Source of the DNA: a virus
Virus record (IMG/VR): IMGVR_UViG_3300025506_000008
Span: 1 to 21,916 of that record
Direction: 5' to 3' (one strand)
Length of the DNA: 21,916 nt
The notes beneath the pieces are model-generated. The model did no database searches. It saw only the letters and a list, made by a program, of their open reading frames with translations, and had not been told where the DNA came from. A program made the position numbers and the translations under genes. Below are positions 537 through 19,850 of this stretch, one piece after another (positions within the stretch are counted from its first letter, which is position 1; each line of letters starts with the position of its first letter).

Positions 537-728
537 TCAATGATTAGTAATCAGTAATCAGTAATCAGTAATCAGTAATCAGTAACCAGTAACCAGTTTT
601 TGTTTTTGTTTTTGCCTTTACTGATCACTGGCCACTGACCACTGGCCTCTGATTACTGGCCACTGATAACTGAAAACTTTCTTTTGCTTTTGCCTTTACT
701 GATTACTGTTTACTGTTTACTGATTACT
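537..728. repeat. Heptamer array 1 (intergenic, composite)
   Basis: About nine CAGT-type units are followed by a T-rich core (540-610), inverted ACTG-type units, then a second core TTTTGCCTTTAC (around 685-696) and more inverted units ending at 728. It fills the space between the portal-MuF gene and the signal-peptide gene to its left. The portal stop codon TAA (724-726) is formed by the first unit of the array. Confidence 0.93.
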
Positions 729-3114
729 CTTTCTCTCCCAGCTCCGGGATCACGTCGCACTCGCAGTTGGGGTGCGCCGGGGGTGCGTCGTCCCCGGAGG
801 AAAAGTCCTGGTCCAGGGGGATCACGCCCTCGTCGGCGTTGCCGTTGCACTCGTCGTCCTGGGGGTGCTCCGAGCCCAGGATCCACTTCTTGCCGCTCAC
901 CAGGCCGCTGGCCCTGTAGGCCATCATGTTGCCCTGCACGTCGGCCTTGGCGATCTCGGTGCGGGCGATCATGTCGCAGCGCCCTGCCGAAAAGCCGAAA
1001 TTATCCTGGAGGACGCCGCTCAGCCGGGCGGTGCTCCAGCCCTCCTGGACCGCCTGGGTGACGTCGGCCCGCAGGTAATCACGGGTCGACTCCTCGATCT
1101 TGGTCACCAGCTCCGCGGCCCGGTTTTCGGCCCACTCCACCGCCAGCTTGTTGACCTGGCTGGTGATGGCGGAGTCCTCGAAGTCGAGCTGGACAAAGGC
1201 CGCCAGGCCGCCGTTTTGGGCCGCCTGGGCCAGGATGGCGGCAACCTCCTTGCGGGTGGCGGCGATGCCGGCCAGGTCCAGGTCGGCCAGGAGCTTATCG
1301 ATCTTTTCATCATCGTCAGTTTTCAGTAACCGGTGATCAGTAATCAGTGATTTTTCGCCGCCTTGGCCTTTTTTACTGGCCACTGGCCACTGATCACTGA
1401 TAACTTTCTTCAGCCCCAGACCTTTGGCGAGGCTGGCCGCCGCGGCCGGCAGATCGGCCTCGAAAGCCTTTTGAAACAGCTTCTTGATGTCGGCCCGGGC
1501 CTGGGCCATGGGCGGCCGGTCTCTATCTATGGGCTCGATCTTCATTTTTTTTTTAGCGGCCTTATCCAGTTTTTTGCTTTTGTCTTTACTGGCCACTTCC
1601 GGTTCTTCGCCTTTGCCTTTTTCTTTGTCTTTGTCTTTACTGGCCACTGGCAACTGGTCACTGGCCACTTCCGCTTCTTTGCCTTTGCCTTTTTCTTTGT
1701 CTTTGTCTTTACTGGCCACTGGCAACTGGTCACTGGCCGCGTCCGGTCCTCCCGGCTCCGGCTGCTCCTTGCCGATGTCGTCCAGCAGCACCGGCCCGAT
1801 GCCGGGGATGATGATGAAATTGGGGATGCCGTCGTCGTCCAGGCCCCGCTTGGTGCGTATCTCCCGGCGCGTGACGATGCCCGCGGCCACGTCCGAGGCG
1901 TCGATCGTGGCCTGGACGTCCGGGGCCACCGACTCTTCCTCCTGCCAGGCGAACTCCAGGTCGTAGAATCCCCAGTAGCGCCAGATGATGTAATCCATCA
2001 GGTCCTTGATCCACTGCATCAGGGGCTGCAGGCCCTCCTCCAGGGCGGTCTGCTGGACCGACTGGGCCACCGCCCGGTTCATCTGGCGCACGAAGGGGGT
2101 CGGAGGGAGAGAGTGGCAGTAGCAGACCACCCGGGCCAGCCATTCGTCGAACTCGTCCTTGAGGCCCTCCAGCTTGGGGAACAGGGGCTTGGCGCCGGAG
2201 GGCACGAAGATCATCCGCCGGCGCATGGCCAGGTTGCCGCTCAAGAGGGCGTCCCAGTAGCCCTGGAACTCCCCGATCTGCGCCGCCGACCATTCCTGGG
2301 GGCACTCGGCGAAGCCCTCGGGGATGCTGCCCTCCATGTAGAAGTTGAGCTGGAAGAGCTGGCGCCGCAGGGCGATGTTGACGATCATGATGGTCTGCTC
2401 CACCGGGGAGTAGCCGTAGAGCCTCCAGGAGCGGGGGTTGCGGGGGACGTAGACCAGCTCCTCGGCGGTGTATTCGGTGGCCGGGATGCCGTGGATGATC
2501 TGCTGGTAGGCCGGGGCCGGGGGCACCGGGGTGCGCCCGTTGCCGTCGATCACCAGCTTGATGGTGGCGCCGTCCACGATCTCCAGGGCGTAGAGCTTGT
2601 CGTTCAGGTTCTGGCGGGGGTAGATGGCCGGGGCGTCGATGACAAAAACATCTTCCATGAGCATCCTGAGCCAGGCCTGCCAGGAATGGAGCCGGTCGGG
2701 GAAGCGCAGAAAGGCCTCGATCTCCTGGACCCGCTTGTCGTCCGGGGCCACGTCGGCGCCCTCCTTGCCCCTTATGCTCGTCTTGAGCTTGACGAGCTGG
2801 TCCTTGCGGGTCTCGATGCACAGCCGGGTGATGTCGTGGGATTCCGCCAGGTTGCGCAGCAGCTCGAAGGGGAGGTAGCCGGCCCGGGGCTGGATGGTGA
2901 GGTTGTAGCCCACCGGGAAATCGTAGGCCCGGGCCGCGGCCTCAGGGGGCGCCTGGGGCTGGATGGGCACGGACGGCCCGAACCAGTCCTCGGACTGCTG
3001 GGGCGCCGGCAGGGTGCGCATGCCGCCGGCCGCCAGGTCGGCGAAGGCCGGGTCGATGGGCGTCCGCAGGGCCTGGGCCCTTTTCAGGATGCCGGTATCG
3101 GAGTCGCGTTCCAT
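724..3114 (-). CDS. Portal protein fused to MuF-like head morphogenesis domain
   Basis: This is a 796-residue protein. Residues about 65-450 read as a phage portal (connector through which DNA enters the capsid): a YNLTIQPRAGYLPFELLRNL start, the aromatic-rich stretch YGYSPVEQTI near 234-243, and the helical QSVQQTALEEGLQPLMQWI region near 351-369. Residues about 605-796 read as a phage Mu gpF-like (PF04233-type) domain, with ARTEIAKA at 717-724 and the closing HPNCEC motif at 781-786. In Mu, portal (gp29) and MuF protein (gp30) are separate genes; here they are joined. The joining segment (about 450-605) is Lys/Glu/Asp-rich and is largely translated heptamer array (461-514 and 571-603). The ATG at 3114 lies directly against an intergenic array with no visible Shine-Dalgarno. 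The family assignment is from motifs and context. Confidence 0.85.
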   Translation of the reverse strand: MERDSDTGILKRAQALRTPIDPAFADLAAGGMRTLPAPQQSEDWFGPSVPIQPQAPPEAAARAYDFPVGYNLTIQPRAGYLPFELLRNLAESHDITRLCIETRKDQLVKLKTSIRGKEGADVAPDDKRVQEIEAFLRFPDRLHSWQAWLRMLMEDVFVIDAPAIYPRQNLNDKLYALEIVDGATIKLVIDGNGRTPVPPAPAYQQIIHGIPATEYTAEELVYVPRNPRSWRLYGYSPVEQTIMIVNIALRRQLFQLNFYMEGSIPEGFAECPQEWSAAQIGEFQGYWDALLSGNLAMRRRMIFVPSGAKPLFPKLEGLKDEFDEWLARVVCYCHSLPPTPFVRQMNRAVAQSVQQTALEEGLQPLMQWIKDLMDYIIWRYWGFYDLEFAWQEEESVAPDVQATIDASDVAAGIVTRREIRTKRGLDDDGIPNFIIIPGIGPVLLDDIGKEQPEPGGPDAASDQLPVASKDKDKEKGKGKEAEVASDQLPVASKDKDKEKGKGEEPEVASKDKSKKLDKAAKKKMKIEPIDRDRPPMAQARADIKKLFQKAFEADLPAAAASLAKGLGLKKVISDQWPVASKKGQGGEKSLITDHRLLKTDDDEKIDKLLADLDLAGIAATRKEVAAILAQAAQNGGLAAFVQLDFEDSAITSQVNKLAVEWAENRAAELVTKIEESTRDYLRADVTQAVQEGWSTARLSGVLQDNFGFSAGRCDMIARTEIAKADVQGNMMAYRASGLVSGKKWILGSEHPQDDECNGNADEGVIPLDQDFSSGDDAPPAHPNCECDVIPELGEKE
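1303..1404 (-). repeat. Heptamer array 2, in frame inside portal-MuF gene
   Basis: It encodes portal residues about 571-603, including ISDQWPVASKK and SLITDHRLLKT. Units of both orientations flank a GGCCAAAAAAGG-type core. Where an intergenic copy would read CAG TGA, this copy reads CAG TGG (Gln-Trp), which keeps the frame open. Confidence 0.88.
1573..1738 (-). repeat. Heptamer array 3, two tandem in-frame copies inside portal-MuF gene
   Basis: Two near-identical copies each encode SDQLPVASKDKDKEKGKG (portal residues 461-478 and 485-502), and a shorter third copy encodes VASKDKSKK. Each consists of four heptamers (GGCCAGT, GACCAGT, TGCCAGT, GGCCAGT) followed by a purine-rich core. The inverted arm is absent. 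The frame is kept open by CAG TTG in place of CAG TAA or TGA. Confidence 0.9.
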
Positions 3115-3271
3115 AGTGGTCAGTGGTCAGTGGTCAGTGATCAGTAATCAGTGGCCAGTAATCAGTGGCCAGTAATCAGTGGCCAGTAATCAGTAAAAGC
3201 AAAAACAAAAAGCAAAAAACCCAAAAAGTGGAAACTGATTACTGTTTACTGATTACTGTTTACTGTTTACT
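3115..3271. repeat. Heptamer array 4 (intergenic)
   Basis: CAGT-type units (GGTCAGT, GATCAGT, then alternating AATCAGT and GGCCAGT) run from 3115 to about 3195. A 40-base A-rich core follows, then inverted units to 3271. It separates the coiled-coil gene from the portal gene. One side touches the portal ATG; the other supplies the TAA of the coiled-coil gene. Confidence 0.93.
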
Positions 3272-3523: not shown

Positions 3524-3634
3524 TCAGTAAACCAGTGATCAGTGATCAGTGGCCAGTGATCAGTAAAAGCAAAAACTGATTACTGGTTACTGATTACTGA
3601 TTACTGATTACTGATTACTGGTTACTGGTTACTG
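3524..3634. repeat. Heptamer array 5 (intergenic)
   Basis: CAGT-type units, the core AAAAGCAAAAAC (around 3565-3576), then eight inverted units to 3634. The last three codons and the stop of the terminase gene (Ser-Asn-Gln-TAA) are made of array units. Confidence 0.93.
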
Positions 3635-5268: not shown

Positions 5269-5361
5269 ATCAGTGATCAGTGATCAGTAATCAGTAATCA
5301 GTAAAGGCAAAAACCAGGGCAACGCGGCCACTGATTACTGTTTACTGATAACTGATCACTT
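5269..5361. repeat. Heptamer array 6 (intergenic)
   Basis: GATCAGT and AATCAGT units, the core AAAGGCAAAAACCAGGGCAACGC, then inverted units. It lies between the exported 134-residue protein and the terminase, and its left edge touches the terminase start codon. The core is the long form containing the complement of GCGTTGCC, seen also in arrays 8, 21, 23 and 24. Confidence 0.93.
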
Positions 5362-10501: not shown

Positions 10502-10603
10502 TCAGTGATCAGTAATCAGTAATCAGTAATCAGTGATCAGTAATCAGTAATCAGTGATCAGTAAAGGCAAAAACTGATTACTGTTTACTGTTTACTGATT
10601 ACT
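10502..10603. repeat. Heptamer array 9 (intergenic)
   Basis: Alternating GATCAGT and AATCAGT units, the core AAAGGCAAAAAC (10564-10575), then inverted units ACTGATT/ACTGTTT. The final residues SNQ and the stop of the holin-like gene are encoded in the inverted arm as read from the minus strand. Confidence 0.93.
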
Positions 10604-11063: not shown

Positions 11064-11164
11064 AGTGATCAGGGGCCAGTGGTCAGTGGCCAGTGATCAG
11101 TAAAGGCAAAAACTGATTACTGATTACTGATTACTGATTACTGATTACTGATTACTGGTCACTA
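11062..11164. repeat. Heptamer array 11 (intergenic)
   Basis: GGCCAGT and GATCAGT units that start from the terminator stem itself, the core AAAGGCAAAAAC (11102-11113), then six inverted ACTGATT units. The last residues (SDQ) and the stop of the HTH gene come from the array. Confidence 0.93.
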
Positions 11165-11393: not shown

Positions 11394-11501
11394 AGTAATC
11401 AGTGAACAGTAATCAGTGAACAGTGATCAGTAATCAGTTTAAAGAGATTTTGTCGTTGCTTTTGCCTTTACTGATTACTGGCCACTGATAACTGATTACT
11501 A
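11394..11501. repeat. Heptamer array 12 (intergenic)
   Basis: AATCAGT, GAACAGT and GATCAGT units, a variant core (TTTAAAGAGATTTTGTCGTTGC, then TTTTGCCTTTAC), and inverted units to 11501. It lies between the 3D-domain gene and the HTH gene. Confidence 0.92.
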
Positions 11502-11975
11502 TCCTTTAACCACCCAGACCCTGGCCCTTTTGAGCCCGAAGGCCCAGCACTCCTTCACCGTCGCCCGGTGGATGTCGACCCGGGGATGCCGCCATTGGGG
11601 GGGCATCAGGTCGTCGAACACGAAGACGCCCACGCCCTCCACCACGATGCGGGTCCCGAAGCGATAATCATAGGTCCCTCGGCCGCACTTGAGTCCCAGC
11701 TGCCGGGCCAGGGGCCGGGAGAGCGCCAGGCAGCCGACGTACACCCTCTTGCCGCTGGTGGTCTTATTCCCCGCCAGGCAGTAAGCGGTTATCGTAGCAG
11801 TAATCAGTAAACAGTTATCAGTAATCAGTGGTTTCCCCGTGCCTTTGCTTTTACTGATCACTGGCCACTGATTACTGATCACTGGTCCCTCACTGATCAC
11901 TGGCCACTGATTACTGATTACTGGCTGCACCGCCCCCTGGATGCTCAGCATGGCATACAGCAGCGCCGCCGCCAT
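11499..11975 (-). CDS. 3D-domain (double-psi beta-barrel) cell-wall protein with array-encoded linker
   Basis: This is 158 residues from ATG 11975, whose A overlaps the TGA of the upstream peptidase (TGATG). Residues 1-16 are a short hydrophobic leader (MAAALLYAMLSIQGAV). Residues about 17-57 are translated heptamer array (VISNQWPVIS twice, then SKSKGTGKPLITDNCLLI). Residues about 58-158 match the 3D domain of MltA/YuiC-like wall proteins: ITAYCLAGNKTTSGKRVYVG, GTRIVVEGVGVFVFDDL, HPRVDIH and the final VKECWAFGLKRARVWVV. The catalytic-type Asp residues (FDDL, VDIH) are present. It probably acts on peptidoglycan together with its neighbour. The array fills exactly the leader-to-domain link. Confidence 0.8.
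   Translation of the reverse strand: MAAALLYAMLSIQGAVQPVISNQWPVISEGPVISNQWPVISKSKGTGKPLITDNCLLITATITAYCLAGNKTTSGKRVYVGCLALSRPLARQLGLKCGRGTYDYRFGTRIVVEGVGVFVFDDLMPPQWRHPRVDIHRATVKECWAFGLKRARVWVVKG
11797..11924 (-). repeat. Heptamer array 13, in frame inside the 3D-domain gene
   Basis: A complete array (units, a TTTTACTGATC side, a GTTTCCCCGTGCCTTTGC core, inverted units) is fully translated. It reads Ser-Asn-Gln-Trp (CAG TGG) twice where intergenic arrays would stop, and Asn-Cys-Leu-Leu-Ile on the inverted arm. Confidence 0.9.
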
Positions 11976-12688
11976 CAAACCTGGATCTCCAGGGCCGCCA
12001 GGGTGGCGGGGCCGCACTCGCCGTCCACCACCAGGCCGCCGTGCCCCTTCTGGAAGTCCGCCACCGCGGCCGCGGTCTCGGGGCCGTAGACCCAATCGGT
12101 CTTGCCGGTGGGCAGGTAGCCCAAGTTCTTCAGGCGGCACTGGATATCAAAGACCTCCTTCCCCCGCATCAGGGAGGGCCCGAGACGCCAGACCCCGCCG
12201 GCCGGGGGCGCCAATGGGAGAGACTGGGGCCGCGGCCCGTAATCGACCCCGGGCACCAGGATGCCGGTGGACCAGCGCCGCCCGTGCAGGGTGCTGAAAA
12301 TCGTGCCCAGGCGGGTGCAGTTCGCCTCGATGGTGCCCCCTTTGCCGTCCGAGAGCACGATGTGATGCTCGGCATCCCCCTGCACGAAGCGCAGCACCGC
12401 GGCCCCGGGGATGGCCGCGGCCAGGGCCGGGCTGATCATGATGCCTTTGGCCAGGACGTCCCGCTCCCAATAGACGGTGCCCCCGTAGCAGCGGCCGGGA
12501 TCTGCCGCGTTGTCCTCGCAGCCGTAGATGACGCCGCCGCCCTGGTAGACCATGGCCGAGACGAACTTGCTGCAGTCCCAGGGCCCGGGGCCGGTGTGGT
12601 TGACGGGCGTCAGGGCCCCGAAGACGTAGGTGTCGTTGGCCTCGGCGTGGGGCCGGGCCACTGTTAGGATATCCTGTCCGGTTTTCAT
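11975..12688 (-). CDS. Phage peptidoglycan peptidase/endolysin with C-terminal peptidoglycan-binding domain
   Basis: This is 237 residues from ATG 12688, preceded by GGAGGAT. The frame stays open through the upstream array, but that extension is repeat-derived and lacks a ribosome site. Residues about 10-160 have an NlpC/P60 or CHAP-like layout: the catalytic Cys candidate is in GPWDCSKFVSAMVY (about residue 38), and the His candidate is in DAEHHIVLSDGKGG (about 119-120). Residues about 180-237 are a PG_binding_1 domain (VFDIQCRLKNLGYLPTGKTD, VYGPETAAAVADFQKGHG, VDGECGPATLAAL). It is likely the lysis enzyme and is translationally coupled to the 3D-domain gene. Confidence 0.85.
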   Translation of the reverse strand: MKTGQDILTVARPHAEANDTYVFGALTPVNHTGPGPWDCSKFVSAMVYQGGGVIYGCEDNAADPGRCYGGTVYWERDVLAKGIMISPALAAAIPGAAVLRFVQGDAEHHIVLSDGKGGTIEANCTRLGTIFSTLHGRRWSTGILVPGVDYGPRPQSLPLAPPAGGVWRLGPSLMRGKEVFDIQCRLKNLGYLPTGKTDWVYGPETAAAVADFQKGHGGLVVDGECGPATLAALEIQV

Positions 12689-12703
12689 CGCATCCTCCGT
12701 TTT

Positions 12704-12818
12704 AAGTGATCGGTGATCAGTGGCCAGTGCCCAGTTATCAGTGATCAGTGGCCAGTAATCAGTGATCAGTAACCAGTGACCAGTAAAGGCCAAAACTGAT
12801 TACTGATTACTGATCACT
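12704..12818. repeat. Heptamer array 14 (intergenic)
   Basis: GATCAGT/GGCCAGT/AACCAGT units with one CGGTGATC variant, the core AAAGGCCAAAAC (12786-12797), then inverted units. GemA ends inside it with VISNQ and a stop. Confidence 0.93.
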
Positions 12819-13264
12819 TTCCTTTCCGCCATGGCCTTCAGCCCGTTCAGCACCTTCTGGGCCTGCTCCAGGGTGAGCCATTCCGGCGCGGCCGCGTGGA
12901 AGCGCCGCCGCAGGAATCGCCGCAGGTTGCCCTCGCGCTCCTGGGGCGCGGCCACGCTGAGAAGATCCCAGCGCCTGCGGATCTCAGCGAGCTGCTCCGC
13001 CGTGGGCCGCCCCTTCCTTGCCTTTGCCTTTGACTTTACTGATAACTGGCCACTGGCCACTGATGACTTCCCCAGGCACTCCTCCAGGTGCTCGATCACC
13101 ATCACCGCCCTGGCGAAGGTCAGCTCCGAGCTGCTCTTGACCCGGAATCCCCCCAGCATCTCCCGGTAGGCCCCGTCATCGTCCCCGAAGAGCTGCCGGC
13201 GCAGCACCTGGATCTTCACCTGCTGGGGGCGGCTTAGTGGCCGTTTCCCGTTTTCGGTTTTCAT
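12800..13264 (-). CDS. gemA: GemA / Mu gp16-like regulatory protein (DUF1018)
   Basis: This is a 154-residue protein. The N-terminal pattern SRPQQVKIQVLRRQLFGDDD, then AYREMLGGF and SSSELTFARAVMVIEHLE, matches the GemA family (helical early/middle gene product of Mu that affects host gene expression and DNA topology). The C-terminal half (TAEQLAEIRRRWDLLSVA, then FLRRRFHAAAPEWLTLEQAQ) fits the second conserved block of the family. Between them, residues about 90-105 (SSVASGQLSVKSKAKARKG) are translated heptamer array, and the last residues KVISNQ plus TAA come from array 14. The start at 13264 has no clear Shine-Dalgarno. It lies next to Gam-region genes, as in Mu-like phages. Confidence 0.8.
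   Translation of the reverse strand: MKTENGKRPLSRPQQVKIQVLRRQLFGDDDGAYREMLGGFRVKSSSELTFARAVMVIEHLEECLGKSSVASGQLSVKSKAKARKGRPTAEQLAEIRRRWDLLSVAAPQEREGNLRRFLRRRFHAAAPEWLTLEQAQKVLNGLKAMAERKVISNQ
13017..13065 (-). repeat. Heptamer array 15, in frame inside gemA
   Basis: This short array separates the two conserved blocks of GemA. It reads GTG GCC AGT GGC CAG TTA TCA GTA AAG, so the frame-critical codon after CAG is TTA rather than TAA. The Lys-rich core follows. Confidence 0.85.
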
Positions 13265-13275
13265 TTTTAGTTACC

Positions 13276-13376
13276 CGTGATCAGTGATCAGTGATCAGTG
13301 ATCAGTGATCAGTAACCAGTGGTTTTCCGTTGCCTTTGCTTTTACTGATTACTGGCAACTGATTACTGATAACTGT
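13276..13376. repeat. Heptamer array 16 (intergenic)
   Basis: Five GATCAGT units and an AACCAGT, the core GGTTTTCCGTTGCCTTTGC, then inverted units ACTGATT/ACTGGCA/ACTGATA. It lies between the 96-residue gene and gemA. Confidence 0.93.
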
Positions 13377-13378
13377 CT

Positions 13379-13669
13379 TCATTGCCTCCGCTGATATTTC
13401 GGGTCCAGCAGGGACGGCACGATGATGCGCCGCTGCGCCTGCGCCGCCTGGGCCGCTTCCCACTCCTGCCGGATCATGCCGGCAAAGAGCGCCTGGGCGT
13501 GGGCCAACATTTCCAGGGAAATGTGGAGGGGAATGGGATAATTCAGGTAATATCCCCCCTGCTTGTCCACGACGACGGTGAGGGTGGCCCCCCTGTCCTC
13601 CGGCGCCGGCAGGCCGTCGGGGCCCAGTTGAAGCGGCTTTTCTTTCGGCTCTGGCTCTTCTTGGCTCAT
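13379..13669 (-). CDS. Hypothetical protein (96 aa)
   Basis: A strong ribosome site (AAAGGAGGG) precedes the ATG. The first 25 residues are acidic and Pro-rich (MSQEEPEPKEKPLQLGPDGL). A beta-type segment then follows (ATLTVVVDKQGGYYLNYPIP) and a helix (LEMLAHAQALFAGMIRQEWE, then AAQAAQAQRR). The tail RIIVPSLLDPKYQRRQ is basic. There is no transmembrane segment or signal, and I do not recognise a family. It lies between gemA and gam in the early/middle region, isolated by arrays on both sides. Confidence 0.7.
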   Translation of the reverse strand: MSQEEPEPKEKPLQLGPDGLPAPEDRGATLTVVVDKQGGYYLNYPIPLHISLEMLAHAQALFAGMIRQEWEAAQAAQAQRRIIVPSLLDPKYQRRQ

Positions 13670-13687
13670 GCGATCTCCCTCCTTTTT

Positions 13688-13849
13688 TCAGTAAGCAGTA
13701 ATCAGTAATCAGTAATCAGTAATCAGTTTTTGCTCTTTTGACTTTGCCTTGGTTTTTGCTTTGCTTTTACTGATTACTGGCCACTGATAACTGTTTACTT
13801 TACTTTGCTTTTGCCTTTACTGATCACTGGCCACTGATTACTGATCACT
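13688..13849. repeat. Heptamer array 17 (intergenic, double)
   Basis: AATCAGT units, a long T-rich core (13725-13768), inverted units, then a second core TTTACTTTGCTTTTGCC (13798-13815) with further inverted units. It lies between gam and the 96-residue gene. Confidence 0.92.
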
Positions 13850-13853
13850 TCCC

Positions 13854-14345
13854 CTATGCCGCCTCCTTGATCTTTTCCCAGTTGACGTCGTAGCCGAAGA
13901 CATCCTTGACCTGCCGACGGACGCCCAACTGGAGCAGGGTCGCGTCATCCAGGTCTTTCAGCTTCTCCTTGTCGGGTATTTCCTGCACCCGGAAATACGC
14001 AAATAATCCCAGGTTCTTGAGCGATTGGAGGCAACCTTCCAGGCTCCGAATGACAATCTTGGTCGATTGCCGGAAACTCACGGTGCCGAAATTGAGGACC
14101 CGGCTTTTGCCCTTCATTTCATCCTTGTGATCCTCGCAGAAGGCCGCCAACTGCAATGCCAGGGCGCTGCGTTTAGCCGTCAGGGGTTTTGTCTTATCCA
14201 GGGTGCGGGACGTGGCGCAGGCGATCTCATCTCCCAGGTCCGCCTCATGCCGGGCGATCAGCCGCTCATAGGTGCCGATGCTCCGCAAGGCCTCGTCCGC
14301 CTCCTCCCAGCTCTTCAATCCGCTCTCAACTCTTTTCCGCGCCAT
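13854..14345 (-). CDS. gam: Gam-like host-nuclease inhibitor
   Basis: This 163-residue protein matches the Mu Gam family, which binds double-stranded DNA ends and shields them from host exonucleases; it is related to bacterial Ku. An N-terminal helical region (SWEEADEALRSIGTYERLIA, with LTAKRSALALQLAAFCEDHK) is followed by the family core KSRVLNFGTVSFRQSTKIVI. The C-terminal block then reads VRRQVKDVFGYDVNWEKIKE, close to the usual ending with a DDR or YD segment. GAGGAGG precedes the ATG, and the gene overlaps the upstream zinc-ribbon ORF by 20 bp. Length and neighbours fit a Mu-type early/middle gene. Confidence 0.9.
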   Translation of the reverse strand: MARKRVESGLKSWEEADEALRSIGTYERLIARHEADLGDEIACATSRTLDKTKPLTAKRSALALQLAAFCEDHKDEMKGKSRVLNFGTVSFRQSTKIVIRSLEGCLQSLKNLGLFAYFRVQEIPDKEKLKDLDDATLLQLGVRRQVKDVFGYDVNWEKIKEAA

Positions 14346-14499
14346 GTCTCGCCTCCTCGAAATAGGGCTTGAAGATATCCTCGTCCAGCCGCAGCATCAG
14401 GGCGCTGCAGGCGACGCAGAGGGCGGTGGCGTCGTCCAGCCCGGCCACGCGCTCGTCCCGGGTCCCGCACTCCACGCATCGGTATTCATAGATCGGCAT
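14326..14499 (-). CDS. Small zinc-ribbon protein (57 aa)
   Basis: The reading begins MPIYEYRCVECGTRDERVAG, the opening used by FmdB-like regulatory zinc ribbons, with CVEC and a second pair CVAC about 20 residues later, so a four-cysteine zinc site is likely. It continues with an acidic helical tail. AAAGGAG lies 7-8 bases before the ATG. It overlaps gam by 20 bp, so the two are probably co-translated. Function is unknown; small zinc ribbons in phages often bind nucleic acid or partner proteins. Confidence 0.75.
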   Translation of the reverse strand: MPIYEYRCVECGTRDERVAGLDDATALCVACSALMLRLDEDIFKPYFEEARHGAEKS

Positions 14500-14517
14500 C
14501 GCCACTCTCCTTTGAGT

Positions 14518-14594
14518 TCAGTGATCAGTGATCAGTGATCAGTGACCAGTAAAGGCCAAAACTGATTACTGTTTACTGATTACTGTTTACTGCT
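14518..14594. repeat. Heptamer array 18 (intergenic)
   Basis: Four CAGT-type units, the core AAAGGCCAAAAC (14550-14561), then four inverted units. It lies between the 157-residue gene and the zinc-ribbon gene. Confidence 0.93.
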
Positions 14595-15067
14595 TATTCC
14601 AACCCCATAGCGTTGGCCACCGCCCGCGTCATGCCGCGCTTTTTCGCCCGGTAGCGGGCGGTGCTGGCGCAACTTTGCGCCGGTTTTATCCTGGTCTGCT
14701 CCAGCAGGTGGTCGAAGCACACCGTCGCCTTTTTGTAAGCCGGCGCCCCGCAGACCAGGCAAGCAGGCGCGGGCGCCGGGGCCTGCGGCTTGGGCCGCCG
14801 GCCTGTTTCCGCCTTTGCCTTTACTGGCAACTGGTTACTGGCAACTGGCAACTTTTCTTTGTCTTTACTGGCAACTGGCAACTGGCAACTGGTAACTTCC
14901 TCCAATTTTAAAGCCCAGGTCAGGCAAGCGAGGCAGCTTTTCCAGGAGGAATACAGCGGCCAGCCCTGTTCCTGCCGCTCCAGCGCCTCCAGATAATTGC
15001 CCCGGCATTGCCGCGCCGAGAGCTGGATCTCCTTGCCCATGCGGGAGCAACTCACCAATCCGTTCAT
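14594..15067 (-). CDS. Cys-rich hypothetical protein with array-encoded linker (157 aa)
   Basis: A ribosome site GAGGAG (with AAAGGAT nearer) precedes the ATG. Residues 1-58 carry cysteines (SCSRMGK, QCRGNYL, SCLACL) that suggest a metal site. Residues about 59-87 are translated array (SCQLPVASKDKEKLPVASNQ, then LPVKAKA), and a Pro/Ala-rich link follows. Residues about 105-157 hold a second Cys cluster (ACLVCGAPAYKKATVCFDHL) and a basic end (TARYRAKKRGMTRAVANAMG). The layout is two small metal-binding modules joined by a repeat-derived linker. I do not recognise a family; a nucleic-acid-binding role is a guess. Confidence 0.72.
   Translation of the reverse strand: MNGLVSCSRMGKEIQLSARQCRGNYLEALERQEQGWPLYSSWKSCLACLTWALKLEEVTSCQLPVASKDKEKLPVASNQLPVKAKAETGRRPKPQAPAPAPACLVCGAPAYKKATVCFDHLLEQTRIKPAQSCASTARYRAKKRGMTRAVANAMGLE
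14811..14897 (-). repeat. Heptamer array 19, in frame inside the 157-residue gene
   Basis: Units TACCAGT, TGCCAGT and AACCAGT surround two purine-rich cores. The codon after CAG is TTG twice, so the frame passes. The array links two cysteine-rich modules. Confidence 0.9.
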
Positions 15068-15085
15068 ATCCTTTGCTCCTCTTAG

Positions 15086-15162
15086 TTCAGTGATCAGTGA
15101 CCAGTTATCAGTGACCAGTAAAGGCCAAAACTGATTACTGTTTACTGCTTACTGCTTACTGC
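15086..15162. repeat. Heptamer array 20 (intergenic)
   Basis: GATCAGT, GACCAGT and TATCAGT units, the core AAAGGCCAAAAC (15120-15131), and inverted units ACTGTTT, ACTGCTT. The 122-residue gene ends inside it with SSKQ and a stop. Confidence 0.93.
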
Positions 15163-15517
15163 TTTCTTCTAATTGCAGCTGCCCCAGCAGCTCCGGCAGG
15201 CCGATGCGCATCATCTTGGCGGCCTGGGAGAGCGAGGTCAGGCCCCGGCGCTGGTGCCGGGCCGCGAACTCGGAGAGCTCCTCCGGGGTCTCCGCCAGGT
15301 AGTAGCCGGGCTCGTATTTTTCGCAGGTGGAGCAGATGGGGTGGCCCAGGCGCCGCAGCTTGCGGATCAGCACCCTGAGCGCCGAGGTGTCGTTGATGCG
15401 GTGAGCGCAGGGCAACTTGTAAACCTTGCGCCACAGTTCAGCCATGCCGATGCGGCGGGGATACCCCCGGTGCCACTCCATCACCTCCAGCAGCCGCTCC
15501 GCTAATGCTTCAGCCAT
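15149..15517 (-). CDS. Winged-helix-like hypothetical protein (122 aa)
   Basis: The start chosen is ATG 15517 (MAEALAER) behind AGAGGGGG. Residues about 5-80 read as a small winged-helix or restriction-adapter-like domain (IGMAELWRKVYKLPCAHRIN, then TSALRVLIRKLRRLGHPIC and the beta hairpin YEPGYYLAETPEEL). A CSTC motif in the wing could bind metal. The C-terminal helix LTSLSQAAKMMRIGLPELLG is followed by an array-derived tail SSKQ. It resembles phage regulatory HTH proteins, but no specific family is assigned. It overlaps the upstream membrane-protein ORF by 16 bp. Confidence 0.72.
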   Translation of the reverse strand: MAEALAERLLEVMEWHRGYPRRIGMAELWRKVYKLPCAHRINDTSALRVLIRKLRRLGHPICSTCEKYEPGYYLAETPEELSEFAARHQRRGLTSLSQAAKMMRIGLPELLGQLQLEESSKQ

Positions 15518-15660
15518 AATGACCCCCTCTCTAAACGCAGGCGCCGCAGCCGCCAGCGCCGCAGCCAGCCGCGGCCCAGCAGCGCCAGGCCGTAAAGGCC
15601 GTAGAGCGCCAGGACTCCGATGAGCAGAACCAGACACTCCTCCAGGATATCGCTTGCCAT
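15502..15660 (-). CDS. Small single-pass membrane protein (52 aa)
   Basis: Reads MASDILEECLVLLIGVLALY, then GLYGLALLGRGWLRRWRLRR and LRLERGSLWLKH. One hydrophobic helix covers about residues 8-29, followed by a strongly basic tail expected in the cytoplasm. A purine run GGGGGGGACG precedes the ATG, and the 3' end overlaps the next gene, suggesting coupling. Function is unknown. Confidence 0.65.
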   Translation of the reverse strand: MASDILEECLVLLIGVLALYGLYGLALLGRGWLRRWRLRRLRLERGSLWLKH

Positions 15661-15674
15661 CGTCCCCCCCTGTT

Positions 15675-15794
15675 CCAGTTGCCAGTGATCAGTGGCCAGT
15701 GATCAGTGATCAGTGATCAGTGATCAGTGATCAGTAATCAGTGGCCGCGTTGCCTTTGCTTTTACTGATAACTGGCAACTGATTACTGATAACT
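15675..15794. repeat. Heptamer array 21 (intergenic and coding)
   Basis: TGCCAGT, GGCCAGT and many GATCAGT units run to 15743, then the core GGCCGCGTTGCCTTTGCTT and inverted units. The 70-residue protein to its right reads through the inverted arm and core before stopping at 15731. Confidence 0.92.
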
Positions 15795-15943
15795 TTCCTC
15801 AAATGCTCCCCCTCCGGCTCGTACATGCGCCGGCAGCCCTCCTCGAAGCAGCGCCGTAGCTTGTGCAGGCTCTTCCAGCGGTCCCAGGACCAGCAGTAGA
15901 AGCGGCTGCGCTCGGCGTTAACCACGATCCGCTGGTTCCCCAT
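15731..15943 (-). CDS. Small basic protein whose C-terminus is array-derived (70 aa)
   Basis: ATG 15943 follows GGGGGAGCAAGGATC, a good ribosome site, and overlaps the upstream gene by 26 bp. Residues 1-50 are Arg/Trp/Cys-rich (RSRFYCWSWDRWKSLHKLRR, then CFEEGCRRMYEPEGEH). Residues 51-70 (VISNQLPVISKSKGNAATDY) are entirely translated array: the frame passes the first Gln codon because it is followed by TTG, crosses the core, and stops on the opposite arm. Function is unknown; a small nucleic-acid-binding protein is possible. Confidence 0.68.
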   Translation of the reverse strand: MGNQRIVVNAERSRFYCWSWDRWKSLHKLRRCFEEGCRRMYEPEGEHLRKVISNQLPVISKSKGNAATDY

Positions 15944-16121
15944 GATCCTTGCTCCCCCAAAACTTGCAAAGGTAGTTCGGCAGGACATAAAATGGTTCCG
16001 CCCACCTGACGCATTCCCGTCTCGGGTCCCGGTCGTCGGGCCTTAATTTCCCGTAATATCCGGGCTTCAACGGCGCTTTCGCGCGCCGATAATGCTTGCA
16101 ATTAAGGCAACGCTCGCTCAT
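15918..16121 (-). CDS. Small cysteine-rich protein (67 aa)
   Basis: Begins MSERCLNCKHYRRAKAPLKP with a CxxC, then single Cys residues in RRECVRWAEPFYVLP and NYLCKFWG, giving a four-Cys set that may bind zinc. AAGGGGTC precedes the ATG. It overlaps both neighbours slightly (4 bp upstream, 26 bp downstream), so this run of genes is tightly packed and coupled. No known family is recognised. Confidence 0.72.
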   Translation of the reverse strand: MSERCLNCKHYRRAKAPLKPGYYGKLRPDDRDPRRECVRWAEPFYVLPNYLCKFWGSKDHGEPADRG

Positions 16122-16597
16122 TTTTCTGACCCCTTCCTGCGGCCTTCCGCCCTTCTATTCCAGACCGGGGCGCACTCCTGCTCCCGGCCCGGGAGCATCC
16201 TGAAAAACAGGGTGTGAAACTCTGCCCCCGCGTGGACCACCAGCTCGCGCCCCTCCAGAAATTCGGCGTATTTCTTGGCGTAGTCGAGGGAGCAGCCGGC
16301 CAGCCGGGCCAGGTCGGCGAAGCACCAGGCCTCGGCCTTCCGGGCCTTGAGAACGATGGCGCGCCAGAGCTTCTCCTGCACCCCGTGCCTCCTGCGCTCC
16401 AGGCGGTAAAGGGGAGGGCCCGCCAGCAGGCTCACCTGGCCCGATTTCAGCATGGCCCAGAGGATGTTGCGCACCCGGGCCCGGCCCTGCCAGTCCGCCA
16501 CCGGGATATCCAGGGCCCGGCAAACGTCCTGCAGGCTCGCCAGGCGCTGGGCCGCCAGCGCCCCCTTGACCGCTTCGGCGGAGATTTCCATGTTCAT
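16118..16597 (-). CDS. Winged-helix DNA-binding-like protein (159 aa)
   Basis: Starts MNMEISAEAVKGALAAQRLA. The ATG overlaps the upstream stop (ATGA). Two HTH-like segments are visible: residues about 20-65 (SLQDVCRALDIPVADWQGRA, then ILWAMLKSGQVSLL) and about 90-125 (WCFADLARLAGCSLDYAKKY, then FLEGRELVVHAG). Such double winged-helix arrangements are common in phage replication or regulatory accessory proteins. The tail is basic (RRAEGRRKGSEK). It lies directly downstream of MuB, where Mu-like phages carry accessory early genes. The specific role is unknown. Confidence 0.72.
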   Translation of the reverse strand: MNMEISAEAVKGALAAQRLASLQDVCRALDIPVADWQGRARVRNILWAMLKSGQVSLLAGPPLYRLERRRHGVQEKLWRAIVLKARKAEAWCFADLARLAGCSLDYAKKYAEFLEGRELVVHAGAEFHTLFFRMLPGREQECAPVWNRRAEGRRKGSEK

Positions 16598-16812
16598 TTA
16601 AATCCCCAATCCTCTTGGAATGTCGGTCTATCTACCCAATTCCCATGCTGATCCATAACTTTGCCTAAAATGAAGGCCCGCTCAAACTCCCACCAGTCAT
16701 AAGCCACATGCCGAAACGGAGGCAACCCTGATGAGTTCAGGGGGAAATCGAAAGAGCGGCAGGCTTCGCCTTTACTGGCAACTGGCAACTGATCACTGCT
16801 CACTGCCTTCAC
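16594..16812 (-). CDS. Small hypothetical protein with GTG start and array-derived N-terminus (72 aa)
   Basis: The frame begins at GTG 16812, overlapping the MuB stop (GTGA); a second GTG at 16803 has a better-spaced GGGAGG. Residues about 5-14 (SSDQLPVASK) are array-derived, again with CAG TTG. The rest is Trp/Phe-rich (PPFRHVAYDWWEFERAFILG, then MDQHGNWVDRPTFQEDWGFK) and ends at the ATGA overlap with the next gene. Tight coupling on both sides supports translation, but the product is not recognised. Confidence 0.55.
   Translation of the reverse strand: MKAVSSDQLPVASKGEACRSFDFPLNSSGLPPFRHVAYDWWEFERAFILGKVMDQHGNWVDRPTFQEDWGFK
16769..16806 (-). repeat. Heptamer array 22, in frame at the start of the 72-residue gene
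   Basis: Units AGCAGT, GATCAGT and TTGCCAGT (twice), then an AAAGGCG core. It lies just downstream of the MuB stop and is read through as SSDQLPVASKG. Confidence 0.85.
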
Positions 16813-17567
16813 CCTCCCGCCGCGGCTCGCCGCGCCACCCGCCGCTGCTCCCGGTCCGCCGAGAGCTGCAGGTTCTTCAAGGCCTGGTTCACCCCGGCCT
16901 TGGTGATCTCCCCGGGGTTGGCCTTGGCCACCGCCTCCAGCTCCTCCAGGATCTTGATGGCCCGGCGGAAATTGCCCCCGGCCTGCTGCTGGATATAGGC
17001 GGCCAGTTCCCCGGAGAGCTTCAGGTCCGCCAGCTCCCGGGCCGCGGCCTCGATCTCCGCCGCGGCCACCGGCCCGAAGGTGAGCACCTGGCCCACCCGG
17101 TCGGCGAACCGCGGCGACTTGCGGCACAGCGTCCCCCAGGCCCCGGACTCGCCGACCAGGATCAGGGGCAGCCCGGCGTCGTGGAGGGCCCGCACCGTGT
17201 CCAGGAGCCGGGTCGAGCGGATCACCCGGTCAGCTTCATCCAGGATCAGGATGCGCATGGCGCCCTTTACGAGACCCTCCACCACCTGGCGCTTGTTGGC
17301 CTCGATGGAGTGCTCCCGGGGCAGCGAGAGCGCCCCGGCCACGTCCCGCATCAGCCAGGAGGCGGTCCAGTCCGGGTCCGCTTCCAGGTAGTGCATCTCG
17401 GTGTTTTGGGTGTAGACCCATTCGGAGAAACAGGTCTTGCCGGCCCCGGTCAGCCCCTCCAGGACCAGCAGGTTGCGTTTGGAGGCCTGGCCGTAGCGGC
17501 GCTTCAGCTCAGCCAGGGCGAACAGGCCCCGGCGGACGTTATCGGTGTGAATGATTCCCGGTCGCAT
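16809..17567 (-). CDS. MuB-like AAA+ ATPase, transposition target-DNA activator
   Basis: This is a 252-residue protein. Walker A GLTGAGKT is at 38-45, Walker B RILILDEAD at 105-113, and the sensor-1-like strand LILVGESG at 135-142. The arginine-rich NFRRAIKILEEL segment near 204-215 fits the C-terminal lid. The size is shorter than Mu B (312 residues) and lacks the long N-terminal HTH extension, like many MuB/TniB-type ATPases. It would bind target DNA, deliver it to the transposase and give target immunity. AAGGGGG precedes the ATG. It is separated from the transposase by a lipoprotein gene and two arrays; in Mu, A and B are adjacent. Confidence 0.92.
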   Translation of the reverse strand: MRPGIIHTDNVRRGLFALAELKRRYGQASKRNLLVLEGLTGAGKTCFSEWVYTQNTEMHYLEADPDWTASWLMRDVAGALSLPREHSIEANKRQVVEGLVKGAMRILILDEADRVIRSTRLLDTVRALHDAGLPLILVGESGAWGTLCRKSPRFADRVGQVLTFGPVAAAEIEAAARELADLKLSGELAAYIQQQAGGNFRRAIKILEELEAVAKANPGEITKAGVNQALKNLQLSADREQRRVARRAAAGG

Positions 17568-17580
17568 TTAACCCCCTTTT

Positions 17581-17715
17581 CCAGTGAACAGTAATCAGTT
17601 ATCAGTCATCAGTGGCCGCGTTGCCTTTGCTTTTACTGATCACTGGCCACTGATCACTGGCCACTATCTTTTGACTTTGCCTTTACTGATCACTGATCAC
17701 TGACCACTGATCACT
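17581..17715. repeat. Heptamer array 23 (intergenic, double)
   Basis: GAACAGT, AATCAGT and TATCAGT units, the core GGCCGCGTTGCCTTTGC, inverted units, then a second core ATCTTTTGACTTTGCC and more inverted units. The lipoprotein gene ends within it (VISGQ plus stop). Confidence 0.93.
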
Positions 17716-17999
17716 TGAGGGGCCACGGCCGGCCGGCCCGCGGTCTGGGCGCCGATCCATTCCTCCTGGCTCATGATCGGGCTGGGCTTGAGCCCCGCCT
17801 TCTCCCGGTCCAGGTTGACCTTCTCCATATCCACCCGGTAAGTGGCGTAGGTCCGGAGGTCGGCGGAGCGCTCCGCCTTCTCCGCCGCCGCGGTCCTGGC
17901 CTGGCTCATCTCGTGGCCCATGTACATGAGGGCCGCGGCCGCGCAGCCCTGAAACGAGAGAAACGCCGCCAGTAACATCAAACAAATGACTCTTTTCAT
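17697..17999 (-). CDS. Lipoprotein encoded between transposase and MuB genes (100 aa)
   Basis: AAAAGGAGG precedes the ATG. Residues 1-18 form a lipoprotein signal (MKRVICLMLLAAFLSFQGCA) with a lipobox-like SFQGC, so Cys19 is the likely lipidated residue. The mature part is helical and charged (HEMSQARTAAAEKAERSADL, then DMEKVNLDREKAGLKPSP), about 80 residues. The last six residues, QVISGQ, and the stop come from array 23. Phage lipoproteins can block superinfection or serve as spanin-like components; its place among early genes favours an exclusion-type moron, which is inference. Confidence 0.8.
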   Translation of the reverse strand: MKRVICLMLLAAFLSFQGCAAAALMYMGHEMSQARTAAAEKAERSADLRTYATYRVDMEKVNLDREKAGLKPSPIMSQEEWIGAQTAGRPAVAPQVISGQ

Positions 18000-18149: not shown

Positions 18150-19850
18150 TTCCACAACCGCCAGCCTGACCCGGGGCGCAGATAGCAGGTTCAGCATCTC
18201 GGCGTATTCGCCCCGGAACCAGGTGAGGAATTCGCCGTCTGCCTGGGTTGCCGGTTTGCCCCTGGCCTGGGCCGCCACAATGGCCTCGTACCGCTCCAGG
18301 GGCGTGGCGAAGAGCTTCTCTTGATCGGTCGATCGATCGGTCGATCGGTCGATCAACTCGACGCCCGCCGCCATCTCCTCCAGTGTAGGGTGGGCACTGC
18401 CCACCAATTCCTTATGGGCTGTAGCCCCTCCGGGCATCTCAAACCCACTCTCCCGCACCTGCGCCTGGCGCACCAGGTGGACCACGTTGCTCTCGGCCTG
18501 CGGCGCGAAGGTTATCGGCCTGGCGCCGGCGTCCCCGTCTGGGGCCTCCTGCTGCAGCCGCTCCAGGGGCGTCAGCTCCCCCCGGCGGTATTCGCCGGCC
18601 GGGGCCGCGGCAAAAGGCGCGGCCGCGTATTTCCGGCCGTCCCGGGGGTCGGCCACCAGCACCGCCCCGTCCCGCACCCCCAGGTAAACCTCGGCCCGCA
18701 CCCCGCCGGGATAGGGCATCTCCTTCACCTGCCAGGGCTCGCCCCGGAAATCGAAGCACCCCGCGGCGTCCAGCGTCCGGTGCTCCCGGTGGAAAATGTG
18801 GCCCCAGGCCCCGGGGTCGATATCCACCACCCCCTGGATCGTCAGCCAGGCCTCCTCCTTGCTCAGGTGCTTGAGCCTGCGGTGCTCGGTGCGGTTGTGC
18901 TCCTGCAGATACCAGGCGAGTTCCTGGTTCAGATCCGCCAGGGAGAACTCCCGGCGCTCGCAGCCCGGGTCCCGGAAAAACCGGGCCTCGAAGCGCCGCC
19001 ACAGGGTCTTCCAGCCGCTCTCCACCTTGCCCGTGGCTTGGGGGCGCCCGGCTTCGTGGGCCAGCAGCCGCACCCCCGCCACCTCGGCGCAGAAGTGCTG
19101 GAAGGCCTTGGTCTTGTTCAGCGGCCCCTGGTCCAGGTAGAGGGTGCCGGGCAGGCCCCGGAAGGGGGCATGGGCCTCCACCTTCGACCAGGTCCATTGC
19201 AGGAAGCTGATGCCGTCTTCGGCGCTTTCACCCTTGGCCACGCAGTAGCGCAGCACCCGGAAGCCGGAGAAATCGTCCACCAGCCCCCAGATCCAGACGC
19301 GCTCCCGCAGCTCCCGGTAATCACGGTTCTTGAAGATGGTGGGGGAGAGCTTGAGGACCCACTCGCCGCCCCGGTGCCGGTGGCACTGGAAATATTCGCT
19401 CCGGGAGGCGTCCATCTGGTGCAGTTCGTTGGGCTGCGACGCCTCGAAGCGGGCCTCCCGGCGCTGCACCCGGGGATGGAGCTGCAGCTCCCGGGCCAGG
19501 CGGTTGACGGTGCCCTCGGGGATGGAAGCCGCCAGGGCGCAGCCTTTGGCGGCCGCCTCGGCCTGGGCGTCCGCGGTGGTCAGGGGCCGCACCCCCTTCT
19601 TGGGATGGTATTTTTCTTTAATGATGGCCTGCACCGCCTCCAGGTATTCCGGGCGCTTGGGCACCCCCTTGGTCTTGGGGGTCTGGCGCCCGGTCTCGCC
19701 GAAGCGCCGCTCCCGCTCACGGTGGAAGGTCCCCAGGCTCATGCCCAGGAGCGGCAGCCGCGCCTCCAGCACCGCTCCCCTTTGCCCGTGCTGCGCCCCC
19801 TCCCACTCCTGCACCACGCCGGTGAAGATCCGCATGTCAATTCCCGCCAC
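18147..19850 (-). CDS. Mu-like DDE transposase (MuA type)
   Basis: This is 567 residues from GTG 19850 (an ATG at 19835 is also possible, one base after the upstream stop). The catalytic triad is clear: D147 in HQMDAS, D240 in LYLDQG, E277 in TGKVESGW, with an rve integrase core between. A winged-helix-like N-terminal part (about 85-125: TTADAQAEAAAKGC, PEGTVNRLARELQL) precedes it, and a Mu_transpos_C-type beta-barrel follows (about 365-420: EPWQVKEMPYPGGVRAEVYL). It would carry out phage integration and replicative transposition. The C-terminal 100 residues are low-complexity and include an in-frame palindromic repeat and an 8-bp tandem repeat (18323-18428). It is shorter than MuA (663 residues). 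Confidence 0.93.
   Translation of the reverse strand: MAGIDMRIFTGVVQEWEGAQHGQRGAVLEARLPLLGMSLGTFHRERERRFGETGRQTPKTKGVPKRPEYLEAVQAIIKEKYHPKKGVRPLTTADAQAEAAAKGCALAASIPEGTVNRLARELQLHPRVQRREARFEASQPNELHQMDASRSEYFQCHRHRGGEWVLKLSPTIFKNRDYRELRERVWIWGLVDDFSGFRVLRYCVAKGESAEDGISFLQWTWSKVEAHAPFRGLPGTLYLDQGPLNKTKAFQHFCAEVAGVRLLAHEAGRPQATGKVESGWKTLWRRFEARFFRDPGCERREFSLADLNQELAWYLQEHNRTEHRRLKHLSKEEAWLTIQGVVDIDPGAWGHIFHREHRTLDAAGCFDFRGEPWQVKEMPYPGGVRAEVYLGVRDGAVLVADPRDGRKYAAAPFAAAPAGEYRRGELTPLERLQQEAPDGDAGARPITFAPQAESNVVHLVRQAQVRESGFEMPGGATAHKELVGSAHPTLEEMAAGVELIDRSTDRSTDQEKLFATPLERYEAIVAAQARGKPATQADGEFLTWFRGEYAEMLNLLSAPRVRLAVVE
18323..18354. repeat. 8-bp tandem repeat (GATCGGTC) inside transposase gene
   Basis: Three to four units of GATCGGTC (with one GATC duplication) are read on the minus strand as DRSTDRSTDQ. 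It is self-complementary at GATC. It lies in the unstructured C-terminal region of the transposase, about 35 bases from a second palindromic element. Confidence 0.85.
18386..18428. repeat. Palindromic intergenic-type repeats inside transposase gene
   Basis: TAGGGTGGGCACTGCCCACC (18386-18405) is an 8-bp-arm hairpin of a type widespread between genes in other bacteria. A second small palindrome GGGCTGTAGCCC (18417-18428) follows. Both are translated in frame (transposase residues about 470-490) without a stop. Confidence 0.75.

Follow-up and report, generated by a model that had tools for sequence, protein, structure and literature searches.

Heptanucleotide repeats of the form CAGTNNN supply the stop codons of several genes in a Mu-like phage and are read through as linkers inside others, and this stop-or-linker pattern is probably the outcome of the genetic code and selection acting as a filter on a promiscuous repeat, rather than a dedicated switch. 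The phage is represented by IMG/VR record IMGVR_UViG_3300025506_000008, the whole of which (21,916 bases) was analyzed and is referred to here as the window. The CAGTNNN family would have come to fill most gaps between the genes, usually as facing arms that set in at a stop codon or immediately downstream of one. Read in the CAGT direction, every frame meets a TNN codon once per three units, with AAT, GAT, AAC and AAA units (named by their variable bases) giving TAA or TGA, and GGC, TAT and TGC units giving TGG, TTA and TTG. An upstream frame entering an array would end as xAG-stop, with arrays in consequence becoming fixed at gene ends as the source of few-residue tails, and arrays would be kept inside genes only where the frame meets non-stop units, usually in a flexible linker. 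In short, its stops would account for the repeat's place at gene ends, and an open frame would be its only way into genes. While positions, frames, unit counts and the comparison with a relative are direct observations, we infer that the arrays multiplied as repeats and that insertions which could not be read were eliminated by selection.

A profile search of the window identified portal (with Phage_portal and Mu_F domains), GemA and TniB-type AAA (MuB) proteins, and its PHROGs matches include terminase, transposase and MuB; a tblastn search of GemA against named phages gave no match. The genes of the window are on the minus strand, short open reading frames (ORFs) being left aside. Seven further IMG/VR records are 99.8-100% identical to the window along common stretches, and as one of these, G001 (31,451 bases), runs 22 kb past it, the array and gene analysis covered 44,117 bases. 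Gene calls were derived from ORFs rather than from a gene finder, and all records are metagenomic, with short-read assembly being capable of collapsing repeats.

Within the window there are 53 chains of at least two CAGTNNN units with period 7, comprising 272 units, and the 44-kb phage sequence has 98 chains of at least three units. Arrays account for 3,220 of the 6,820 non-coding bases (~47%) of the latter; coding DNA is 84% of the sequence yet has only 11% of array bases, the remaining 89% being outside called genes. The commonest units, AAT and GAT (together 115 of 219), are stop-type on both strands, and CAGTTAT is a minority with 14 of 219 internal units. On the gene strand a gap usually opens with the stop codon, followed by the CAGT-direction arm, a hinge (AAAGGC... 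or ...GCCTTT) and the ACTG-direction arm, up to the next start codon. Facing arms with a purine or pyrimidine hinge are present in most intergenic gaps (e.g. 3121-3265, 10503-10597 and 12718-12812), and adjacent opposite arms no more than 80 nt apart are CAGT-then-ACTG in 36 of 36 cases, with the reverse order in 0. The hinge-near arm is short and rich in GAT and GGC; the far arm is long and AAT-rich.

An earlier note made from the sequence alone had listed seven genes whose ends are SxQ-stop within an array. Six do end so (terminase, gemA, lipoprotein, helix-turn-helix (HTH), holin-like and 122-residue genes); the seventh, the 70-residue gene (16594-16806, minus strand), actually ends GGA TTT AAA TGA with no array, and the gene intended may be the 72-residue one, whose TGA sits in an opposite-strand arm. 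Missed were the portal, 80-residue and 150-residue genes, with their GAG-TAA ends in which TAA is the edge unit of an array. The GAA-TAA end of the 157-residue gene shares the register of these edge-unit stops, and past the window in G001 the end of gene x365 is made by a full unit, GTT CAG TGA (VVQ-stop). Since 14 of 31 stops beside arrays are in the heptamer TNN register, against an expectation of 4.4 (P = 3e-5), stops and arrays were not independently placed. The further claim, that any frame is exposed to a stop within three units, is correct only if all units are stop-type, and 25 of the 138 frames that run through intergenic chains on the CAGT strand are open.

Called genes contain eleven arrays of at least three units, ten in the CAGT direction (portal 3, 3D protein 2, gemA 1, 157-residue gene 2, 72-residue gene 1 and 70-residue gene 1) and one in the ACTG direction. 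All ten of the former have TTG (6), TGG (3) or TTA (1) as the in-frame TNN codon, just as the earlier note reported for this decisive codon. Stop-type units are in frame in 0 of 10, make up 23 of 33 out-of-frame units in the same arrays, and 161 of 195 (83%) intergenic CAGT-strand units. Because such regions were called as genes, the lack of in-frame stops is a tautology and no evidence for a grammar.

The commonest intergenic module, GAT-GGC-GAT-AAA, has one frame open and can therefore be read with no base change. Among intergenic modules with an AAA hinge, 14 of 21 have GGC as the second unit ahead of the hinge, 15 of 21 have one open frame, and 19 of 63 module-frames are open. In most internal arrays the in-frame unit occupies this same hinge-2 position that opens the intergenic modules, and the frame through the hinge unit, which is always closed (CAG TAA), is used by no internal array.

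Two features of unit choice weigh against a filter being the whole explanation. Units giving TTG (TGC) are 10 of 43 in coding arrays versus 2 of 422 outside (p = 9e-10), an enrichment that persists without the portal duplicate and one 157-residue array (p = 1e-4 among non-stop units) and that would not be expected of a filter alone, to which TGG and TTA are just as acceptable. These other two codons, which had likewise been expected to be enriched only in coding arrays, are not so (TGG 3/10 versus 53/422, p = 0.13; TTA 1/10 versus 26/422, p = 0.48) and were rejected as coding-specific, a result of the kind that the earlier note itself had named as telling against it. Secondly, the hinge-adjacent unit is non-stop in 8 of 9 coding modules versus 4 of 21 intergenic ones (p = 0.0006; 6 of 7 with duplicates removed, p = 0.003), and its TNN codon is mostly not in frame. 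In the main frame a non-stop unit at that position changes VISK to VASK, and TGG to TTG changes W to L; once inside a gene, linker units seem to be tuned at the protein level (Trp to Leu, Ile to Ala). Both excesses suggest that, besides the filter, selection or copying has been at work within genes.

Table 1. Internal and stop-providing arrays of the window, with translations across them
Feature	Position	Strand	Translation or remark
Portal internal array 1, units GAC TGC GGC AAA (TGC in frame)	1711..1735	-	ASDQLPVASKD
Portal internal array 2, copy of the 1711..1735 array	1639..1663	-	72-bp (24-codon) duplication; single copy in L012
Portal internal array 3, GAT GGC GGC AAA (first GGC in frame)	1375..1399	-	ISDQWPVASKK
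3D protein read-through arrays	11853-11884, 11892-11923	-	ISNQWPVIS; between N-terminus and conserved part
3D protein ACTG-strand array	11798-11829	gene -	LITDNCLLIT; between N-terminus and conserved part
gemA internal array, GGC GGC TAT AAA (TAT in frame)	13038..13062	-	VASGQLSVKS; G022 has unrelated linker
157-residue gene read-through arrays	14823-14847, 14867-14891	-	TGC-rich
72-residue gene read-through array, AAT TGC TAT AAA (TGC in frame)	15764..15788	-	ISNQLPVISKS; G022 stops here at CAG-TAG
70-residue gene array at extreme N-terminus, GAG GAT TGC TGC AAA (first TGC in frame)	16774..16805	-	SSDQLPVASKG
Terminase stop array, 9 units	3575..3634	-	SSNQ-TAA at 3622-3624
Holin-like gene stop array, 4 units	10573..10597	-	ESNQ-TAA
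HTH gene stop array, 7 units	11112..11157	-	DSDQ-TAA; G022 stop 3 codons earlier, LNQD-TGA, no array
gemA stop array	12795..12812	-	VISNQ-TAA; common to G022 (VASNQ-TGA)
122-residue gene stop array, 5 units	15130..15161	-	SSKQ-TAA
Lipoprotein stop array, 4 units	17685..17709	-	VISGQ-TGA
Portal stop array, edge unit GAG-TAA as stop (724-726)	698..728	-	
Opposite arm of 72-residue gene, 10 units	15676..15742	+	gene ends within arm, GAT TAC TGA

A syntenic relative, G022 (44,469 bases; protein identity about 35-80%), provides a view of how such sites change. Among 32 comparable genes an array is at the stop in both phages in 15, in the window phage only in 9 and in G022 only in 2. Stop positions are mostly conserved while the units differ: the 150-residue gene has GAG-TAA-CCAGT here versus GAG-TAG-CCAGT in G022, gemA ends SNQ-TAA here versus SNQ-TGA there, and the 3D gene ends KG-TAG in both. 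Array-made tails have been gained or lost, with, among others, SDQ of the HTH gene being present here, and CQ-TGA of MuA and SDQ-TGA of a 159-residue gene in G022, whose units are mainly GAG, AAG and AGC. G022 does not have the internal arrays of gemA, 3D, the 157-residue gene and portal. In it and in L067 the portal, 3D and 157-residue linkers carry a GGATCAG heptamer, and a palindromic element read HRLEACAT is in two linkers; these repeats being unrelated, the same sites accept different repeat families. The read-through arrays are insertions in or beside linkers that G022 fills with other sequence, other repeats included. Further members of the portal family repeat the pattern with different heptamers, which are stop-free within ORFs or stop-bearing at ORF ends; in L069 a single portal ORF reads across CTCAGTC arrays and terminates where the orientation is GGACTGA. 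The other phages with this fused portal (L060-L069, L121-L134) carry other heptamers: AACGGAA, CCGAAAA, CAGTGAG and CTCAGTC.

Are the arrays nonetheless maintained for toggling between termination and C-terminal extension or fusion by a base or unit change, as contingency or evolvability? We regard this as very unlikely. Consistent with it are the TTG enrichment in coding arrays and the end of the 72-residue gene, where CAG TTG here corresponds to CAG TAG in G022. The latter, a naturally occurring stop/read-through pair at an orthologous site, comes closest to the claim that one base decides between stop and linker, but the arrays are out of register there, so that the bases are not homologous and the site is not a clean point change; moreover, read-through of the 72-residue gene adds merely a tail ending in the opposite arm. 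Across the near-identical records, from seven other metagenomes, array lengths show just two differences, an in-frame 72-bp portal loss and a 2-bp intergenic change, and the arrays are accordingly not hypervariable, leaving a hypervariable phase switch unsupported. The portal loss, in L012, which has one 72-bp repeat versus two in the window (1639-1735), would suit a switch, but it could be an artefact because of the collapse of repeats in short-read assembly. Nor did read-through make a fusion, since in two named Brevundimonas phages the portal-MuF protein is already fused, and fusion of portal to MuF by array read-through was rejected as these portals are without the repeats at the array sites; the third portal array is an exact gap in the alignment.

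The facing arms invite the thought of RNA stem-loops between stop and start, with the hairpins insulating, stabilizing or coupling translation and the all-frame stops being included. In favor are the great regularity of the stop-arm-hinge-arm-start layout and the folding of six intergenic elements, which is better than that of shuffled sequence (z -2 to -8). At the starts of portal (3115-3121) and terminase (5269-5271) an arm runs right up to the start codon and a Shine-Dalgarno is not evident, as has been reported for Beggiatoaceae TAACTGA repeats. However, arms from the same gap pair worse than arms swapped between gaps, both at full length and when cut back to 18-25 nt (P 0.996 to 1.0), their complementarity is explained by the CAGT/ACTG cores alone, and internal arrays are often single-armed. 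Selection for hairpin pairing is thus unsupported, and we consider a stem-loop role quite unlikely. The worse same-gap pairing looks as if perfect palindromes were avoided.

Most improbable, in our judgment, is that AAT and GAT units were selected as fail-safe terminators that stop translation in all frames. Their being the commonest units with stops on both strands would fit, as would the preponderance of stop-type units on the CAGT strand both between the genes here and in G022 (44 of 47), but one frame stays open in the hinge module, a natural stop is usually already there ahead of the array, and CAGT arrays of Acidobacteriaceae are mostly non-stop on that strand (TCT, GGT and TGC).

The same CAGT arrays, some with an AAARGC hinge, are also present in metagenome-assembled genomes (MAGs) of Deltaproteobacteria, Syntrophales, Acidobacteria and others. 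While the exact hinge pattern had no match in bacterial genomes, a looser one matched 27 loci in MAGs, mostly of Deltaproteobacteria and Acidobacteria. Density in MAGs is far lower: at most about 311 four-unit matches per 3.9 Mb versus 78 matches of a stricter pattern per 22 kb here. In two Acidobacteriaceae MAGs (L041 and L043) arrays are inside open frames of ~1,100 codons, read SGQWSVASKSE and SSQWPVASKSG. A different repeat, short and GATC-rich, is at 18323-18354 of the window within the transposase gene, and is translated DRSTDRSTD.

The closest known system is the direct repeat of the heptamer TAACTGA in Beggiatoaceae, Cyanobacteria and Bacteroidetes, which is mostly intergenic; in one orientation it closes all frames and overlaps the ends of genes, and in the other it is read LSVISYQ in ORFs (MacGregor 2015, PMC4679880). 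The reverse complement of TAACTGA, TCAGTTA, corresponds to the CAGTTAT unit here, with CAGT core and period identical, and the phage arrays share with it the mostly intergenic position, all-frame stops in one orientation and overlap with gene ends (PMC4679880). It differs in being one invariant heptamer of few units with no inverted partner, mostly just upstream of start codons and in cellular genomes (PMC4679880), whereas the phage has mixed CAGTNNN units in facing arms that, with their hinge, fill most stop-to-start gaps, and also reads through in the CAGT direction via GGC and TGC units. The read-through/stop rule is therefore already published for a member of the same repeat family (PMC4679880), and the stop-codon grammar of the earlier note, though right in its arithmetic, was overstated, given this 2015 precedent, the tautology, the ordinariness of TGG and TTA and a module that is open to begin with. 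As far as our search of the literature shows, the phage setting, density, mixed units, facing arms and open-frame module have not been described.

Several further systems bear comparison. The tandem repeats of Borg elements also make a repeat-dense extrachromosomal element, with repeats in gaps and genes and frame-keeping linkers, but inside genes the Borg repeats have lengths that are multiples of three, and their units are mostly unique, in contrast to the phage's common 7-nt family, which is frame-compatible by unit choice (PMC9879509). In the phage the in-gene unit is also 7 nt, and the sole repeat with a length that is a multiple of three is the larger one of 72 bp in the portal gene. Rickettsia palindromic elements and in-frame miniature inverted-repeat transposable elements (MITEs) are, like the phage arrays, dispersed, palindromic and in frame in unrelated genes as usually tolerated peptides, but the Rickettsia elements are ~150 bp with a conserved encoded peptide and the arrays are of variable length with 7-nt units (PMC10969869). 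The heptameric simple sequence repeats of Xanthomonas and Nostoc are abundant and mostly intergenic as in the phage, though with different, G-rich sequences (PMC4692102). As to MITEs, the phage arms are inverted but variable in length and sequence, and phase-variable simple sequence repeats undergo frequent frame-altering copy change, unlike the almost invariant array lengths of the near-identical phage records. Heptamers of the cyanobacterial short tandemly repeated repetitive (STRR) class are abundant and mostly intergenic, with sequences that differ from the phage repeat.

One might go further and see in the facing arrays a genome-wide gene-boundary element of the phage lineage which takes over stops, whose open frame (VISDQWPVISK, later VASDQLPVASK) supplies tails and linkers, and in which single unit changes open or close boundaries in evolution; we hold this to be unlikely. 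The filter which we favor illustrates how a gene-dense phage can harbor a repeat that is out of step with the triplet code. The SxQ-stop tails and SxQ(L/W)PV segments of predicted proteins are translations of the repeat and not conserved motifs, and through the CAGTNNN family a link is drawn between the heptamer repeats known from Beggiatoaceae and Cyanobacteria and phages whose bacterial hosts are uncultured.

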